A DNA stretch of 36,733 nt, from positions 1 through 36,733 of the IMG/VR virus record IMGVR_UViG_3300022187_000006, one strand, 5' to 3'. This stretch comes from a virus. Shown here piece after piece: positions 1 through 36,733 of this stretch. The notes beneath the pieces were generated by a model, which was not told the DNA's origin, searched no databases, and worked only from the letters and a program-made list of their open reading frames with translations. The translations under genes and the position numbers were made by a program. Positions within the stretch are counted from its first letter, which is position 1; each line of letters begins with the position of its first letter.

Positions 1-127
1 TCAATGACGATTGGTCTCATTTCCAACATTTCTGGAAAATCGATGATCGATTGTTTTAACTTATCGAACTTATCGGCTGAAAGGATCCTTGGATTTTCAG
101 GATTCGCTTTTAATAAATCAGTTGAAT
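1..127. repeat. Terminal direct repeat, left copy
   Basis: Bases 1-127 are identical to 36607-36733. An exact 127-base overlap at contig ends is what a de Bruijn assembler leaves when it closes a circle, so this more likely reflects a circular or circularly permuted genome than a biological terminal repeat. It lies inside the ParB-like gene, which is only complete when the ends are joined. Confidence 0.95.
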
Positions 128-137
128 AATATTCCAT
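1..137 (-). CDS. ParB-like protein, N-terminal part (gene continues at window end)
   Basis: This is the start of the ParB-like protein whose remainder is at 36222-36733. The ATG at 137-135 shares its A with the TAA stop of the upstream 64-aa gene (TAATG), a coupling used throughout this genome. The segment encodes about 45 residues beginning MEYYSTDLLKANPENPRI. The 'NPRxLS..KFDKLKQSI' pattern is typical of the first helix and strand of ParB/sulfiredoxin-like domains. Joined across the circle the protein has 173 residues. Confidence 0.85.
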   Translation of the reverse strand, partial: MEYYSTDLLKANPENPRILSADKFDKLKQSIIDFPEMLEMRPIVI

Positions 138-3749: not shown

Positions 3750-4139
3750 TTATTCAGAAATGTAATCAGGCGTATATTTCGCGTCCCATACGTCAAGCAA
3801 AGCTGCAAGGATCGCTTTATCAGCTTTAAGTTTCCAATTAGCACATAAATTTGAAACAGCATTAGAAGATTCTTCAGGGCAAAAATTGTAGATCATTTGT
3901 TTGCGATCTTCAATTGAGTTATGCAACGACGTTTCAAAAAATGTTTTTTTACCCGTAAGGCGTAAAATTAAAGAATTGATTTGAGCGATTTTATAATCTG
4001 CGATGTACAAATCTTCCGCCAACCATGATAAATGATAAGACGCGTTCTTTGTAAGTTTTTCAATGCAATGTGATTTTTTTGCGATTGATCTGTCTAATAA
4101 AAATGTAAGCGATTCGATTGTATTGTTTTGTTCTTTCAT
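3750..4139 (-). CDS. Hypothetical helical protein
   Basis: A 129-residue soluble, mainly helical protein with four cysteines, beginning MKEQNNTIESLTFLLDRS. It lies between the 47-aa gene and the primase-helicase. The leader AAACAATATC directly before the ATG is the same as that before the 47-aa gene upstream, which supports this start. No family recognised. Position suggests a replication accessory, but that is context only. Confidence 0.75.
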   Translation of the reverse strand: MKEQNNTIESLTFLLDRSIAKKSHCIEKLTKNASYHLSWLAEDLYIADYKIAQINSLILRLTGKKTFFETSLHNSIEDRKQMIYNFCPEESSNAVSNLCANWKLKADKAILAALLDVWDAKYTPDYISE

Positions 4140-4152
4140 GATATTGTTTTTT

Positions 4153-4296
4153 TTATGTTGTTACTGTAAAATTATCGATTCCGTTCCACAAACTTCCCGC
4201 ATATTCACGAGCACAATGGAAAGTAGCTTGAAAACTACTAGGTAAGCATCTGTAAGTTCGAATTGTTTTGTTGTTTTTTTTGACAAGTATTTTCAT
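4153..4296 (-). CDS. Small hypothetical protein, first gene after the 4.3-kb promoter
   Basis: A 47-residue protein beginning MKILVKKNNKTIRTYRCL and ending VTT. The ATG is 23 nt downstream of a consensus flavobacterial -7 box and has the leader AAAAAACAATATCATG, repeated almost exactly before the next gene (ATG at 4139). Being first in the transcript that carries the primase-helicase suggests an early function. No domain recognised. Confidence 0.65.
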   Translation of the reverse strand: MKILVKKNNKTIRTYRCLPSSFQATFHCAREYAGSLWNGIDNFTVTT

Positions 4297-4318
4297 GATA
4301 TTGTTTTTTAAAGATATT

Positions 4319-4348
4319 CAAATCTACAGAACATTTTTTACATGGCAA
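4319..4348 (-). promoter_or_regulatory. Bacteroidota-type promoter (TTG-19-TAGATTTG)
   Basis: On the minus strand TTG (4348-4346) is followed by a 19-nt spacer and TAGATTTG (4326-4319), a perfect TAnnTTTG -7 box. The block ATGTTCTGTAGATTTGAATATC and the following TTTAAAA leader recur near 6.5, 10.4 and 24.4 kb. It overlaps the end of the DUF4373-like gene and precedes the 47-aa gene and primase-helicase operon. Confidence 0.8.
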
Positions 4349-5036
4349 TTTTTTTTCTTATTTTATTTCCAGAATTGTTTTTTTTGTGCCACCTCAAAAA
4401 GTGAGTACAGTAATCAACAAACGTTTTCATTTCCACGCCTGATTCAATTAAATGTTTATTAAATGCATTCAAACGAATAGGTATTTGCTTAACCGTAATT
4501 ACATTTTTAGGATTATTGGCAACCGCTTTTATTATTCGATCATTTTCTAAATACATTTCTTTGCATCGATTGATTGGAATAATTGACGCCGGATCTGGTA
4601 AAGTAGTCTTATCTTTTATTATATTATCTACTGTACTCTTATCTACTATTATCTTATCCTTTGTATTAGCTTTTGGTTTAGCTTTATTTCCGCGACCACC
4701 TTTGGCTCCATTTGCTTTTTTCGATTCCCAATTTTTCATGTTCGAAACTAACGGAGCGCACCAAAAATAATCATCATCGAAATCGAAGAGGCCTACTTTC
4801 AAACAATAATCGAACCAAACTAAAAAACGCGATTCATCTTTAAAGCCTACAATATCGCACAACAATTCTAAAGATTCATTATTGCGTTCAAATTTATATT
4901 CGTTAGTATCCCTTAGGATTTCGACTACGTCCCAATAGAGGCCTTTTCCTTCGTGTCCAAATTTATGTGACATCTTACGCATCTTCAATCCACGACCTGC
5001 GCTAGAATCGTGTCTAAACCAATAACTATCTTTCAT
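4338..5036 (-). CDS. DUF4373-like replication-initiator protein
   Basis: This 232-residue protein starts with a domain like DUF4373 (Lin1244/Lin1753-type): MKDSYWFRHDSSAGRGLKM, then a winged-helix-like segment with GKGLYWDVVEIL. A low-complexity linker (about residues 115-145, rich in Lys, Asp and Asn) is encoded by GATAA-rich DNA repeats. The C-terminal 80 residues may be a second helical domain. Such proteins are usual replication-initiation or DnaD-like factors in Bacteroidota phages. It overlaps the DnaA-domain gene by 11 nt. I infer that it binds the repeats within its own gene, as lambda O does. Confidence 0.7.
   Translation of the reverse strand: MKDSYWFRHDSSAGRGLKMRKMSHKFGHEGKGLYWDVVEILRDTNEYKFERNNESLELLCDIVGFKDESRFLVWFDYCLKVGLFDFDDDYFWCAPLVSNMKNWESKKANGAKGGRGNKAKPKANTKDKIIVDKSTVDNIIKDKTTLPDPASIIPINRCKEMYLENDRIIKAVANNPKNVITVKQIPIRLNAFNKHLIESGVEMKTFVDYCTHFLRWHKKNNSGNKIRKKIAM
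4634..4690. repeat. GATAA-rich iteron-like repeat inside the initiator gene
   Basis: The minus strand holds several GATAAGA-type units (for example GGATAAGATAATAGTAGATAAGAGTA). A close, expanded copy lies between genes at 24268-24355, including the shared AAATAAAGCTAAA and AAAGGATAAGATAA and GTAGATAAGAGTA blocks in the same order. Conservation at DNA level, inside a coding region and outside one, suggests protein-binding sites, possibly the origin. Confidence 0.55.
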
Positions 5037-5628
5037 TTAATTGAGTATTTAATTCGCGTTCTTTAAAAATGTCTGAATAATGTCTTTCACAACTAAGCAT
5101 CTTCAAATAAGGTTTGCATCTGCTTTCAATAAATTCACCTCGTTTTTCTTCAGGAATTTTATTTAATTCATGATAAAAGTTCTCATCCGTCGATTTGTTT
5201 CGCGATCTTTCTAATCTCAATTCTTCTTGTAATCGAAGGATCAATAAAGTTAGTTTGCCAACATTTTCAGTTTCTGCAGAAATTATTTTTGTATCGATAA
5301 CTTCTAATGCATCGACTTCTTCCGGACTCATGTACTCAATTACTAATTTTGATTGCTCATAAATTTTATTGACTTCAGGGATCTTAATATATTCTTCGAA
5401 TTGAACATTGATAGAATGGATCACAGTCGCGTGGTTTAGGCCTTTAGCTCCGTCTGGTACGATTAACTTTCCAATTTGTTGTAAGGATATGAACTCGCTA
5501 CTATCTTTCAGCAGCCGCATCGCTACGGATCTAGCCCAGACGTATTCTATTTTTCGCGTTTTTTTTCTGCAATCAAGCCCTGCGATTGTATTGACTACTT
5601 CAATGATATCTTGTGGTGTATAATTCAT
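5026..5628 (-). CDS. DnaA domain IV-containing protein (DnaA-like DNA binding)
   Basis: Residues about 25-95 of this 200-residue protein resemble DnaA domain IV: 'YVWARSVAMRLLKD' matches the 'R.IAMYL.RE' helix, 'SLQQIGKLI' the 'SL..IG..F' helix-turn-helix, and NHATVIHSI the signature DHTTVIHAI. There is no AAA+ ATPase domain: this is only the DNA-binding part plus a charged helical C-terminal half. It may recognise DnaA-box-like sites at the phage origin or compete with host DnaA. It sits between a 68-aa gene (4-nt ATGA overlap) and the DUF4373-like initiator (11-nt overlap), which supports a role in initiation. Confidence 0.8.
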   Translation of the reverse strand: MNYTPQDIIEVVNTIAGLDCRKKTRKIEYVWARSVAMRLLKDSSEFISLQQIGKLIVPDGAKGLNHATVIHSINVQFEEYIKIPEVNKIYEQSKLVIEYMSPEEVDALEVIDTKIISAETENVGKLTLLILRLQEELRLERSRNKSTDENFYHELNKIPEEKRGEFIESRCKPYLKMLSCERHYSDIFKERELNTQLNER

Positions 5629-6522: not shown

Positions 6523-6804
6523 CTATTTTTTCTTAATTTTTTCAAAAAATTCTGTAGCGCTTGTGATAACGAGGTATTCCACGCCTGCTGATTTCATTCC
6601 GTCGGCGCATTTTTGTTCACCTTTTGTTAATTTCTTCGAAGCATCGACCTTTATTTCTACAGGATATAAGGATCCTTTATACGCTACCAATACGTCGAAA
6701 GCTTCTTTAAGTGTATAAGTATGCACAATGAAGCAACCACGTTTCCGCAGTTGCCTTACTATTTCTGGTTGATTCGAATCGATTCTAGCGAAATATTTAC
6801 TCAT
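6523..6804 (-). CDS. PD-(D/E)XK (VRR-NUC/Holliday-junction-type) nuclease
   Basis: A 93-residue compact nuclease-like protein. N-terminal 'ARIDSNQPEIVRQLRKRG' is the usual first helix of VRR-NUC and phage resolvase-like folds. D37 (in FDVLVAY) and the ExK pair E50-K52 (PVEIK) give the D...ExK active site. 'LTKGEQKCADGMK' matches the conserved 'LTpaE..F' helix. I choose the ATG at 6804, which makes a 4-nt ATGA overlap with the ASCH-type gene; an ATG four codons earlier exists. Likely role: branched-DNA or recombination intermediate processing alongside the Rad52-like protein, or a step in DNA packaging. Confidence 0.7.
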   Translation of the reverse strand: MSKYFARIDSNQPEIVRQLRKRGCFIVHTYTLKEAFDVLVAYKGSLYPVEIKVDASKKLTKGEQKCADGMKSAGVEYLVITSATEFFEKIKKK

Positions 6805-7076
6805 AATGATTTGCAACGTTTAGGATCGGAAATCGAAATTACTTTAATACAAAAAATGCAATGCCCTTCTTTTAACCCATGAATTGATTTGTTCAAAACG
6901 TAAGTAATTTGGGCTTCAATCAAACGTCCGGTATAATTTTTCGAATCCAAATTGTATTCCATTAATCTGACCCGATCGCCTTCCTTGAAATTATCGTGTT
7001 TTCTTAGTTCAAAAGTTTTAATCCCGTCTGCAATCAGATCAAACGGGATTGGATTTATTTTTAGGTGATGTATCAT
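6801..7076 (-). CDS. ASCH/PUA-like DUF3850 protein
   Basis: This 91-residue protein matches DUF3850, an ASCH-type PUA-like RNA/nucleotide-binding fold. It starts 'HHLKINPIPFDLIADGIK', followed by the signature 'TFELRKHDN' (the G.K..ElR motif), 'GDRVRLMEY' and 'LKEGHCIFCIKV'. ASCH proteins bind RNA or modified nucleosides, and some act as nucleases or deaminase-like enzymes. It lies 2 nt from the ABC-ATPase/GNAT fusion and overlaps the nuclease gene by 4 nt, so the three are translated as a set. Its substrate is not visible from sequence. Confidence 0.8.
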   Translation of the reverse strand: MIHHLKINPIPFDLIADGIKTFELRKHDNFKEGDRVRLMEYNLDSKNYTGRLIEAQITYVLNKSIHGLKEGHCIFCIKVISISDPKRCKSL

Positions 7077-7078
7077 AG

Positions 7079-8254
7079 TTAAAACATTTCAATTTGGTTT
7101 TGAGCTACATCTTTGTAAATCTCATTTTTAAACAAAATTAATTTAGTATCATCTTCAGAAGGAGGCCCGACCCATTTATAAGATTTGGTAATCGCGTTTC
7201 GATAAGACAACATTCCGCCTTTGTCGGCGTCTTGCATTTTTTTCATCCAATCGCTATTAATCATTTCTGCAGTAACTTCTGTCGTTTTATGCCAATTAGG
7301 TGATTTGTCACGATGCGACCACAATGCCGGGTTAGAAGTTTTCACGTACATTGTTCTACCCTCCGCCTTGTAAAGTGACGCTAAATAATCAGTTACTCGC
7401 GAACCAATGCCTAATCCTTGATAGTCGGGTAATACGACGGTTCGGCTCATTCGATACCCGTTCTTAATATTCCCATGAGGGAAAGGTAGTACCGCGTTAA
7501 ATGAAATCGGTTTACCATTCATAACCGTCACGTAGCAAATGCAAGCTTTATTTAGGTCTTCAGTTAAATAGTGATGTTGTTTGAATATGTTCCAAGTTTC
7601 ATATCTACATCGAAATATCTGAAGGTCGAGGTCTGGTCTTGTTCGCCTTTGACGTGACGCTCTCTCAAGACGCCCTTTTAATGGTGAATAAGTCCAATCA
7701 GGCAATAACCATTCCATGATATCAAAATGACATGAAGCAACAATGATCCTTTTATTATTTCGTCTGATATATTTTTGCAAAGCATTCGACATCGCTTTCG
7801 CAACGTCGCGATCTACAACTGAGGTAAACTCATCGATCAGAATAACTTCATTATCTTTTGCTTTTCCGACTTTGTAAGCTAACGCAGCTCGATATTGTTC
7901 GCCGTTCGATAATAAATGAAATGGGCGTAACCATGTAGGTACAGACGCTAACCCCATAGCTGAAAGCAAAAATGTCGCTTCCTTTGGTTCTAACCAATCA
8001 AAATTAGAAATTAAAGGTTTGTTTTCATCGAATGAATCTTCTTTTAGGGCCCCAAATTCTTTTAGCAACGTAGTTTTTCCTGTACCGGATCCGCCATAAA
8101 TTACTCCAATATTCCAATCGAATTGTTTTGCTCCTTCGAAATTGATTGGGATTTTTACTGTCGTTTCGTCTTTGTTTTGAATGTCAAATGCTGAATAAAT
8201 ATACTCAGTGTATTTGTCATTTATTATCTTGTTTGTTCGTGTTAAGTATCTCAT
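7079..8254 (-). CDS. ABC-type ATPase fused to GNAT acetyltransferase (COG2401-like)
   Basis: This 391-residue protein joins two domains. Residues about 45-200 form an ABC-family ATPase with Walker A GGSGTGKT (54-61), an ABC signature-like LSNGEQ (115-120), Walker B VILIDE (137-142) and an H-loop histidine (H176). No membrane partner is nearby, so it is not a transporter. Residues about 210-390 form a GNAT-like domain with the acetyl-CoA loop QGLGIG (279-284) after 'SRTVVLPDY', then a conserved 'TSNPALWSHRD' segment. The architecture is that of COG2401, whose function is unknown. Because phage Mu Mom is a GNAT-fold DNA-modifying enzyme, a role in DNA base modification is an attractive but untested guess. 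It overlaps the HNH gene by 4 nt. Confidence 0.82.
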   Translation of the reverse strand: MRYLTRTNKIINDKYTEYIYSAFDIQNKDETTVKIPINFEGAKQFDWNIGVIYGGSGTGKTTLLKEFGALKEDSFDENKPLISNFDWLEPKEATFLLSAMGLASVPTWLRPFHLLSNGEQYRAALAYKVGKAKDNEVILIDEFTSVVDRDVAKAMSNALQKYIRRNNKRIIVASCHFDIMEWLLPDWTYSPLKGRLERASRQRRTRPDLDLQIFRCRYETWNIFKQHHYLTEDLNKACICYVTVMNGKPISFNAVLPFPHGNIKNGYRMSRTVVLPDYQGLGIGSRVTDYLASLYKAEGRTMYVKTSNPALWSHRDKSPNWHKTTEVTAEMINSDWMKKMQDADKGGMLSYRNAITKSYKWVGPPSEDDTKLILFKNEIYKDVAQNQIEMF

Positions 8255-8538
8255 ATTAGTTTATCTTTTATTTGATGACATTTTCTGCCAAGGATTTCTA
8301 AATTATCTAAATTCCAAATCTGTTCGACACATCCGTTTTCTTTCGCTTCTTTGCGTGAAATAGTATGTGAAACGTCGATAGGTTTGCAATCGTTTCTCAT
8401 GCATTTTTGACAGAAATTATAACCAGAATTTATGAATTGAAGTTCAAGCAATAATTTAGCCGCTTTGTCAGACTTGCGGTTGATTTGTTCTGTCGTATAG
8501 CGTTCGCCTGACGAAGTTCTGTAAGTTGGTTTTCCCAT
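8251..8538 (-). CDS. HNH endonuclease-like protein
   Basis: A 95-residue protein with the parts of an HNH finger. CQKC at about 43-46 supplies two zinc ligands, 'DVSHTISRKEAK' the first His region, and 'WNLDNLEILGRKCHQIKD' the Asn and final His (N...C..H). The N-terminus is basic. Possible roles are a nicking endonuclease, a recombination endonuclease (NinG-like) or a homing-type nuclease. Coupling on both sides (TAATG at 8538, ATGA at 8251-8254) argues it is a resident operon member rather than a mobile intruder. Confidence 0.7.
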   Translation of the reverse strand: MGKPTYRTSSGERYTTEQINRKSDKAAKLLLELQFINSGYNFCQKCMRNDCKPIDVSHTISRKEAKENGCVEQIWNLDNLEILGRKCHQIKDKLI

Positions 8539-8731: not shown

Positions 8732-8944
8732 TTAAGAGTTGTTTTCTTTAATATATCGATTCATGTCTGATTTTGTTTGTGCGTGTTTCCATTCAAGATA
8801 TCGAAACGCCGGGTCTGCTTTAAGTTTGTTTGTGATTGTTGGCAGAACTTTCACTTCTTTAATAGTGTATCCGCGTTCTAAAAACTTTTCTAAATGATGA
8901 GCTTCGTGTTCGTCTTTTAATTCAAATTGCATTTGTACTATCAT
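8732..8944 (-). CDS. Small hypothetical protein
   Basis: A 70-residue protein beginning MIVQMQFELKDEHEAHHL, strand then helix, probably a small alpha/beta fold. It overlaps the Rad52-like gene by 4 nt (ATGA), so it may act with it. No family recognised. Confidence 0.7.
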   Translation of the reverse strand: MIVQMQFELKDEHEAHHLEKFLERGYTIKEVKVLPTITNKLKADPAFRYLEWKHAQTKSDMNRYIKENNS

Positions 8945-9732
8945 GATTTTTTGTTTTGTTCGTTTGTTCTTTCAAGCGCTTTCGTAAGTGTCGTTCTTTG
9001 CCCAACTGACATTCTAAAATTTTTCAAATAACCAGCGATGTATTTATGATTTTCTGGTTCCATTATCTTATCGAATTGATCAGAAGATAAGGCCTGTTTT
9101 CTGTCTGAATCAACAGGAGCAATTTTCACTTCGATTTTAGGTTCTGATACAGTTTTAGATTCAGTAATTCGCGCCGCTTTCCAATTGAATCTTAATACTG
9201 CATTTTGATCCCATGCAGCTAATTGGATTATTTCATTTTTATCATTGAATTTAGAAGTCCATGTCCAATTCTTTATTTGTAAATCAAAAGTAGCAACGAC
9301 GCGTGCTTTATAATTCCCAGATGCAGGAATCACTTTAAATTCATTCGCGTTAAGTTTCACCTGTATTGTTGGGTAGTCGTATAATTCGCGACCGATACCC
9401 CAGTTAAACGCAGCTCGCTTAAATGAATCACTTGCTTGTCCTTTTTCTTTAGACGCACTAGATTCCGCCCCAGCGTCCCATTTCCATACCCAATCGTTAT
9501 ATTGATCCGTAGGTTTCGAAACGTTGATCCCGATCCCACAATAAACAACGTCGTTTATTTCTTTGTGGTCACGTTGCCAATTTTGAGGCCCACAAACATC
9601 GTCTAAAACATTCATGTCTACTCGAGCGTTTTTATAAGACAAAATTGTCGCATAACCGCCTTTGTTAATTGATTGCACCCTGAAATCCACATCTTTTATG
9701 TCGATTGGGGTTTGTAATTTTTTTAAATTCAT
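8941..9732 (-). CDS. Rad52/Rad22-family single-strand annealing protein
   Basis: This 263-residue protein carries the Rad52_Rad22 core in residues about 15-140: 'FRVQSINKGGYATILSYKNARV', then 'WKWDAGAESSASKEKGQASDSFKRAAFNWG' broken only by usual substitutions, then IGRELYDYP. In known members the run of D-G-x-E, K-G-x-A-S-D and K-R-A lines the DNA-binding ring. Such proteins (Sak-type) anneal complementary single strands in phage recombination and repair. The C-terminal third (about 180-263) is less conserved and contains basic helices. The SSB-like protein and the PD-(D/E)XK nuclease are likely partners. Confidence 0.88.
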   Translation of the reverse strand: MNLKKLQTPIDIKDVDFRVQSINKGGYATILSYKNARVDMNVLDDVCGPQNWQRDHKEINDVVYCGIGINVSKPTDQYNDWVWKWDAGAESSASKEKGQASDSFKRAAFNWGIGRELYDYPTIQVKLNANEFKVIPASGNYKARVVATFDLQIKNWTWTSKFNDKNEIIQLAAWDQNAVLRFNWKAARITESKTVSEPKIEVKIAPVDSDRKQALSSDQFDKIMEPENHKYIAGYLKNFRMSVGQRTTLTKALERTNEQNKKS

Positions 9733-10513: not shown

Positions 10514-11227
10514 TTATAAATGCATAGGCTCGAGGTGTGGCGTTCCGTCTAAATCGACACCGCAACCAATGATAGGTTTAGGGAAGTTTTTACCATAAGC
10601 AAAAGCATATTTCTCATGATCTATTCCGCAGCCCGATTGTACGCCGTATATTTTGAAACGTTGCCCAACCATGTAATCGATGTAAAATTGGGAATGTAAA
10701 TGCCCTTGCCACGTGGACATCAACTCTTTTTTGTATCGCGTTCTAGCCGTACCGCCTTCGCCGTGGTGATATAATGTATCTCCTATGATTGTTTTCTCTT
10801 TGAATTCCCAATTTGGTGTTTCTAGCACTTCATGATATTCGCGGATCCATTTTTTAGGAATCCCTGCAGAAAACGCTTTTCGACTTACAATTCTGTCATG
10901 GTTTCCAATCATAACTTCAGCAGGCCCAAATTCAGTGTGCCAACGTTCCAATCTGCGAATCGCTAAATCTAATTCGTCACCTCCTCCCATCCCGTCTGGA
11001 TCTGTTTCATGATAAGACGTATGGTGAGAATCTATTACGTCGCCCATAAAAACAACTCTGTTACATTGATATCTGTCGCGAACTTTTCTAACGTGGTCGA
11101 AATATGAATCCAAAGAAAATGGTTCGTGCAAATCGCCTATGACTAAAACGCGACAAGAATCTTTGTCGTTTAAGTATTTCAAATATTCTCTTAATGCATC
11201 GTTCCCAATGCGTACTCTATTTTCCAT
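10514..11227 (-). CDS. Calcineurin-like metallophosphoesterase
   Basis: This 237-residue protein has every metallophosphoesterase motif in order: GDLH (31-34), GDVID (62-66), GNHD (108-111), a His in LYHHGE (about 154) and GHLH (175-178). These residues ligate two metal ions for phosphoester hydrolysis. Phage members may cleave cyclic nucleotides, RNA ends or nucleoside phosphates; the substrate cannot be told here. It is last in the late transcript, after lysis genes and just before the strong terminator, with a 57-nt gap that may hold its own weak promoter. Confidence 0.9.
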   Translation of the reverse strand: MENRVRIGNDALREYLKYLNDKDSCRVLVIGDLHEPFSLDSYFDHVRKVRDRYQCNRVVFMGDVIDSHHTSYHETDPDGMGGGDELDLAIRRLERWHTEFGPAEVMIGNHDRIVSRKAFSAGIPKKWIREYHEVLETPNWEFKEKTIIGDTLYHHGEGGTARTRYKKELMSTWQGHLHSQFYIDYMVGQRFKIYGVQSGCGIDHEKYAFAYGKNFPKPIIGCGVDLDGTPHLEPMHL

Positions 11228-36221: not shown

Positions 36222-36733
36222 TTATTCAGTCATTCGAAACCAATCTATAAATTCTTGAGGCGTCATTCCTTTTTTCGCTATTTGAAAGTGACATTCCAAT
36301 AAACGGGTATCGCTGACGTGTACCGGGTCTTCTTTTGGTTCCTTAGTTTGTCTGTCAAAATCTAGATCGGGTTCCTCAGTGTCGATGCTAAACGTATCTA
36401 GCCCCCATTCACTTAGCGGGAGGTCGCTCCATTCATTGTTCAATATATCCCAATCCCATAAACCAAAAGAAACGTTGTCTTTTATTATGAACTCAGCTTT
36501 TTGGTTTTCAGTTAAATCAATTCGTTTTATAACAGGAATTTCTTTTAACCCTAATTCGATACAGGCCCGAAGTCTCATATTACCTCCGAGCACCATATTA
36601 CTTTCATCAATGACGATTGGTCTCATTTCCAACATTTCTGGAAAATCGATGATCGATTGTTTTAACTTATCGAACTTATCGGCTGAAAGGATCCTTGGAT
36701 TTTCAGGATTCGCTTTTAATAAATCAGTTGAAT
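36222..36733 (-). CDS. ParB-like nuclease-domain protein (main part)
   Basis: Joined to 1-137 this makes a 173-residue ParB/sulfiredoxin-fold protein. 'MRPIVIDESNMVLGGNMRLRACIELG' contains the GG.MRl.A motif (the GERRxxA equivalent), and 'IPVIKRIDLTENQKAEFIIKDN' matches ParB-like domains fused to phage DNA methyltransferases. Here no methyltransferase follows: the C-terminal 70 residues are short and acidic, then a helix 'MTPQEFIDWF'. The role may be DNA cutting, adapter or NTP-dependent binding near packaging genes. An internal ATG at 36635 is not the start. Confidence 0.8.
   Translation of the reverse strand, partial: STDLLKANPENPRILSADKFDKLKQSIIDFPEMLEMRPIVIDESNMVLGGNMRLRACIELGLKEIPVIKRIDLTENQKAEFIIKDNVSFGLWDWDILNNEWSDLPLSEWGLDTFSIDTEEPDLDFDRQTKEPKEDPVHVSDTRLLECHFQIAKKGMTPQEFIDWFRMTE
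36607..36733. repeat. Terminal direct repeat, right copy
   Basis: Exact copy of bases 1-127, marking the closed circle. Unique genome length is 36,606 bp. Confidence 0.95.

Follow-up and report, generated by a model that had tools for sequence, protein, structure and literature searches.

Described relatives and the four-gene cassette

A family of ABC-coupled GNAT proteins was predicted by Iyer 2013 to acylate a DNA base, as cited in a passage of PMC7824862 where Tenacibaculum phage pT24 is the named example; the literature apparently reports no experimental test of this prediction. Three other systems offer points of comparison. Mom of phage Mu is a GNAT-type phage enzyme that acts on DNA and has neither an ABC nor a ParB partner. 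The Mom-REase pairs of jumbo phages, as sketched in part of PMC7824862, place a GNAT modifier and a nuclease within one phage, the nuclease being fused to Mom. In the DndBCDE system (PMC10853773), DNA is acted on by DndB, which has a ParB fold, by the ABC ATPase DndD and by an enzyme that carries out the chemistry, with exchangeable nucleases alongside.

We examined a stretch of viral DNA of 36,733 nucleotides, referred to below as the window. The original prediction placed four coupled genes between positions 6523 and 8538, and all four ORFs were indeed found, each on the minus strand:

8251-8538, minus strand: HNH-finger protein, 95 aa (PHROG HNH, 1.6e-5; Pfam HNH, 0.04, under the cut-off)
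7079-8254, minus strand: ABC-ATPase/GNAT fusion, 391 aa (phrog_11143), the putative core of the system and predicted base-acylating enzyme
6801-7076, minus strand: ASCH/DUF3850 protein, 91 aa (Pfam DUF3850, 3.5e-21)
6523-6804, minus strand: small PD-(D/E)XK-like (VRR-NUC-like) nuclease, 93 aa from ATG (PHROG endonuclease, 3e-6)

The HNH and fusion genes share a 4-nt ATGA overlap (8251-8254), as do the ASCH and nuclease genes (6801-6804), and the fusion and ASCH genes are separated by a 2-nt gap (7077-7078). For the nuclease, the ORF caller chose a TTG start at 6816 in place of the ATG that gives 6523-6804. The genes flanking the four are packed equally tightly (8538, 8729/8732, 8941-8944), so the coupling within the cassette is weak evidence. 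A Rad52/Erf-type annealing protein (8941-9732) and a calcineurin-like phosphoesterase (10514-11227) lie upstream on the same strand. The protein encoded at 5026-5628, which carries the C-terminal DNA-binding domain of DnaA (Pfam, 1.6e-7) and has a PHROG replication-initiation match, belongs to a family that is common near the fusion, being present in 43 of 81 loci of relatives. When the cassette was searched with PADLOC, the fusion gave just weak ATPase-type matches and the HNH, ASCH and nuclease proteins gave none.

The fusion is not a chance ORF, since close relatives are encoded in 183 IMG/VR stretches; its PHROG match is to phrog_11143, of unknown function (E 2.4e-137, 458 bits). The ABC motifs that had been read from the letters proved to be intact, and their residues do not vary among 11 diverse homologues: G54/K60 of Walker A, L115-S116-G118 of the signature, D141-E142 of Walker B and H176 of the H-loop. 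The reading of the C-terminal half as a GNAT domain was also confirmed, both by Pfam Acetyltransf_1 (4.4e-6, exceeding the cut-off) and by a structure model with the GNAT fold (pLDDT 87). In the same 11 homologues F224, Y229, R271, P276, G280 and G282 of this half were invariant and H228 was kept in at least 90% of sequences; among 71 GNAT halves, the P, F, H, Y, R, V, Q and G of the F-x3-HY and R-x-V...QG motifs were invariant. The acyl-CoA loop QGxGxG is intact. The best PDB fold matches of the model were RimI and other acetyl-CoA enzymes (about 5e-7), and its best viral matches were the same-family members LE4 and 9184.

The original prediction regarded the fusion as the best candidate for an undescribed system. 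This was too strong, because DNA-base acylation had already been predicted for the family in the passage of PMC7824862 cited above, and because the pT24 protein matches the fusion at 54.5% identity over 318 residues (1-318, BLAST). The window protein thus has ABC and GNAT domains joined, is homologous to pT24 across both, and is a member of the predicted family. The window and the pT24-type system are alike in the joined domains and in the predicted DNA acylation; the passages of PMC7824862 on that system do not mention an ASCH/nuclease slot, ParB, PanD or formyltransferase. The literature searched here contains no mention of COG2401. Cultured phages carrying the family enzyme include Nonlabens phage P12024S, which at 67% identity is the nearest isolate, Gordonia phages Sisko and Jace, Pseudomonas phage Komp_PAO1_1, Lactococcus phage P335 and LE4 of Leptospira biflexa.

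In pT24 the fusion (L083, about 4001-5173) is interrupted by an in-frame TGA and is annotated as two genes; this may represent a sequence error, or it could reflect readthrough or decay. ABC and GNAT are also annotated separately in Lactococcus phage P335, Streptococcus phages Javan141 and MismyG, and Oenococcus phage Vinitor-27 (L088, L090, L093 and L097, respectively), and in L095 and L096. In the split loci the GNAT lies in the -1 frame, which is open already ahead of the ABC stop, and that stop is located on the codons of the HHYL motif. The GNAT frame of Javan141 and MismyG has no NTG start ahead of this motif. Slippery heptamers are present in P335 and Javan141 (GGGAAAT, AAATTTA), with TTTAAAC also in P335. 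This arrangement suggests that programmed -1 frameshifting may yield the fusion in the split-gene phages.

A parallel with Mu Mom had also been proposed. Both proteins are of GNAT type with an early HY motif (KHYS in Mu Mom, HHYL here), which would suit a true Mom relative that makes Mom-type methylcarbamoyl adenine, and to this shared feature the parallel is now reduced. The hhalign comparison of the fusion family with Mu Mom gave 0.2% probability (against a shallow Mom alignment of 9 near-identical rows); the solved Mom structure, 8bv8, was absent among the best 50 PDB fold matches, which GNAT acetyltransferases fill; and the fusion family keeps its acyl-CoA glycine loop, in contrast to Mom, where PRNSES occupies the apparently equivalent place. 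Mom membership was rejected upon these negative profile and fold comparisons, and Mom-type chemistry is considered highly improbable.

ParB-like and acyl-supply genes near the enzyme

At 43 of 66 genome loci, which are mostly from Planctomycetota, Nonomuraea and Endozoicomonas and are outside the lineage of the window, a ParB-like gene is found no more than 400 bp upstream of the enzyme; an identical 22-nt ParB/enzyme overlap recurs 16 times among the genome loci. Scoring of annotated phages placed ParB at this distance upstream in 9 of 17, and by annotation Jace and RHEph10 have an upstream ParB too. One locus (L221) encodes ParB, ABC and GNAT as a single 611-aa protein. In the viral set to which the window's lineage belongs (71 loci, mostly Bacteroidota-like), ParB was adjacent in just 2. 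The window phage does have a ParB gene, split between the ends of the record:

36222-36733, minus strand: ParB-like gene, C-terminal part (ParB_N, 2.5e-5; our own ParB HMM, 7.5e-48)
1-137, minus strand: ParB-like gene, N-terminal part (frame begins MEYYSTDLLKANPENPRIL; ParB HMM, 4.5e-10)

The gene spans a 127-bp direct terminal repeat (1-127 and 36607-36733 of the 36733-base record), and this repeat makes it probable that the record represents a complete phage genome, circularly mapped. The ParB gene is situated about 7 kb downstream of the fusion and does not adjoin it; in two other loci (L008/L009) a gene of the same ParB family follows the fusion, four genes further down. In Porphyromonas and Pseudomonas phages (L089:3852-3980 and L091:3798-3947) the upstream ParB has shrunk to a peptide of 42-49 aa that resembles the ParB C-terminal tail only, and this tail may be the part that contacts ABC-GNAT. 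Phage ParB folds are commonly fused to DUF3850, the ASCH type of the window, and a ParB-acetyltransferase fusion binds GTP (PMC12704722).

Directly behind the enzyme, Jace has an aspartate decarboxylase (PanD) and a type III CoA-transferase, and Sisko and Komp_PAO1_1 have a formyltransferase; Pfam supports the Asp_decarbox, CoA_transf_3 and Formyl_trans_N domains. When IMG/VR was searched with each gene alone, all four PanD relatives and all six formyltransferase relatives were found directly behind ParB-ABC-GNAT, and the 11 closest formyltransferases in phage records were all from phages with an adjacent ABC-GNAT. This linkage of PanD/CoA-transferase and formyltransferase points to an acyl-CoA donor, and the best clue to the chemistry is that two unrelated enzymes both fit an amino-bearing acyl group. 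The window fusion has neither PanD nor formyltransferase adjacent to it, so a plain host acyl-CoA is our default guess for its donor.

GNATs more often act on proteins, small molecules or RNA. The target of the ABC-GNAT might be RNA or protein, such as tRNA, the ribosome, host RNA polymerase or a packaging protein, acylated for takeover or packaging, with ParB and ABC serving only to position the enzyme. In agreement with such a target are the nearest folds to the GNAT half, which are protein and small-molecule acetyltransferases such as RimI, the tRNA-related annotation of the Sisko formyltransferase, and the frequent nearness of the module to terminase genes (within 4.5 kb downstream of the enzyme at 17 of 54 genome loci). 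RNA polymerase is a known target of some phage GNATs (PMC7824862), and single-strand RNase activity is reported for a different ASCH protein (PMC5615036). The ParB partners and the swapping of DNA-type nucleases point instead to DNA, and phage-borne PanD and CoA-transferase favour a special acyl group over ordinary acetylation; a protein or RNA target is rather unlikely on this balance.

ASCH and nuclease partners behind the fusion

Clustering of the ORFs around 81 relatives gave six sizeable families that are restricted to the three positions behind the fusion. Four of them are ASCH or nuclease-like (c7, c10, c29 and c43), c7 uniting ASCH and nuclease by way of L013, where the enzyme is followed by an ASCH-nuclease fusion protein; the remaining two consist of small uncharacterised proteins. 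Scanning all ORFs of the 81 loci with an ASCH HMM gave 18 matches, in the window and 17 others, every one at position +1 or +2. After dereplication to 40 loci, all seven ASCH genes lay at +1 to +3 (expected 1.2; maximum 5 in 10,000 permutations), as did 22 of 22 members of the nuclease families (N10, N29, N43, N7 and the window's own; expected 3.0, maximum 10 in 10,000 permutations). The nuclease statistic is partly circular, because the families were picked after being seen in the slot; the ASCH statistic, unlike it, is free of this circularity. In roughly half of the dereplicated relatives no nuclease was recognised in the slot. On the fusion tree there were 6 changes of ASCH, 13 in the presence of a nuclease and about 17 in partner type. 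The slot downstream of the fusion is repeatedly refilled across the window's lineage. In Javan141, MismyG and Vinitor-27, unrelated ASCH proteins lie directly behind the split enzyme.

The HNH protein had no homologue among the roughly 3,800 neighbouring ORFs of the surveyed loci and was dropped as a component of the system for this want of recurrent linkage. Recurrence of the cassette in other phages, which had been put forward as a check on the original prediction, therefore held for ASCH, held likewise for small nucleases of PD-(D/E)XK-like type, and failed for HNH. The absence of a recurrent HNH gene would also suit an arrangement in which the four genes do not form a single system: the fusion would modify DNA, and the ASCH, nuclease and HNH genes would be independent early genes of a shared replication/recombination operon. 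The entire early region is tightly packed and Rad52/Erf, DnaA-like and helicase genes surround the cassette, as this reading would have it. ASCH and nuclease genes are, however, directly behind the enzyme far oftener than elsewhere, on several branches and from unrelated families, and a control nuclease family in the same loci (N15) had scattered positions, so the slot does not attract every nuclease. Independence of the four genes is accordingly judged improbable, to about the same extent as a protein or RNA target.

Among the nuclease families, only N43 clears a Pfam cut-off (PDDEXK_14). N10 has an invariant D...DHK motif and a confident structure model; it gave no Pfam match and no significant fold match, its top fold matches, all sub-threshold, being mostly PD-(D/E)XK restriction enzymes or resolvases. 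Small nucleases of phage replication regions can be resolvases. The window nuclease has an EAFDVL-x8-PVEIK motif and no Pfam match, and its relatives are annotated phage endonucleases.

The window ASCH protein matches DUF3850 at 75.6 bits (cut-off 22.9) and the solved ASCH structure 3iuw at E 2e-4, and probably binds a modified base, or RNA. Its GxKxxExR motif is kept, and K20, E23 and R25 do not vary among 13 ASCH partners. The N4-acylcytidine amidohydrolase YqfB, which has the same ASCH fold, needs Lys21, Thr24 and Arg26 (PMC6972931); the spacing of its K21 and R26 matches K20 and R25, whereas the place of its catalytic Thr24 is taken by Glu23 in all 13 partners. The Lys-Thr-Glu triad of YqfB is thus lacking in the partner proteins, hydrolysis by the YqfB mechanism is not expected, and a YqfB-like deacylase role is less likely for want of the catalytic Thr. 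From these residues, ASCH is likelier to be a reader of the modified base than an eraser. Used as the sole query in the reciprocal search, the window ASCH protein found no IMG/VR relative.

Proposed working of the system

The genes, their motifs, the GNAT fold, the linkages and the occurrence of ParB-ABC-GNAT as a single protein were observed directly. With ParB, acyl-CoA genes, formyltransferase, ASCH and nucleases surrounding ABC-GNAT, the context fits a modification set; the forecast of a nucleic-acid modification or anti-restriction set is partly supported and loses the HNH gene and the claim of being undescribed. We infer that DNA is the substrate, that the chemistry is acyl transfer, and what the nuclease and ASCH proteins do. 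It is somewhat more probable than not that the fusion forms the catalytic core of a DNA-modification system of the phage, acylating bases under ParB guidance and driven by ATP, and is joined here by a nuclease/ASCH partner. The nearness of terminase genes counts for this reading too.

As proposed, a ParB-type NTP-binding protein would mark or load the phage DNA; the ABC domain would dimerise around ATP and present or distort the DNA; and the GNAT domain would take the acyl group of a CoA thioester and attach it to an exocyclic base amine (adenine N6 or cytosine N4). The acylated base would shield virion DNA against host nucleases, and in the window's lineage the slot nuclease, with or without ASCH, would cut DNA that lacks (or bears) the mark, like a restriction-modification pair. 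Donor or tailoring enzymes (PanD and CoA-transferase, or formyltransferase) occupy the slot instead in certain other phages. This three-part plan resembles Dnd phosphorothioation in logic and not in membership, as the sulfur chemistry, coiled-coil ABC and DndE of that system are all absent here. It also has a GNAT modifier and a nuclease in one phage as do the jumbo-phage pairs, with the difference that separate, swapping nuclease genes lie behind ABC-GNAT in place of the fusion to Mom described in that part of PMC7824862.

A bolder form, which we hold only tentatively and with more doubt than belief, would make this a restriction-modification-like system of a new chemical class, in which ParB-guided ABC-GNAT acylates bases and the swappable nuclease and ASCH reader destroy unmarked host or rival DNA, the marks of sister phages being aminoacyl. 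The sister phages would attach beta-alanyl through PanD and CoA-transferase, or N-formyl-aminoacyl through the formyltransferase.

With these linkages the 2013 prediction becomes narrower: the donor would be a CoA compound, the partner ParB and, in certain phages, the group aminoacyl. A DNA base of unknown kind was predicted then for the ABC-coupled GNAT, and cultured carriers of the enzyme exist. A virus-borne protect-and-cut system is plausible from the gene content, and if the slot is real, phages would own protect-and-cut systems of a chemistry unlike methylation.
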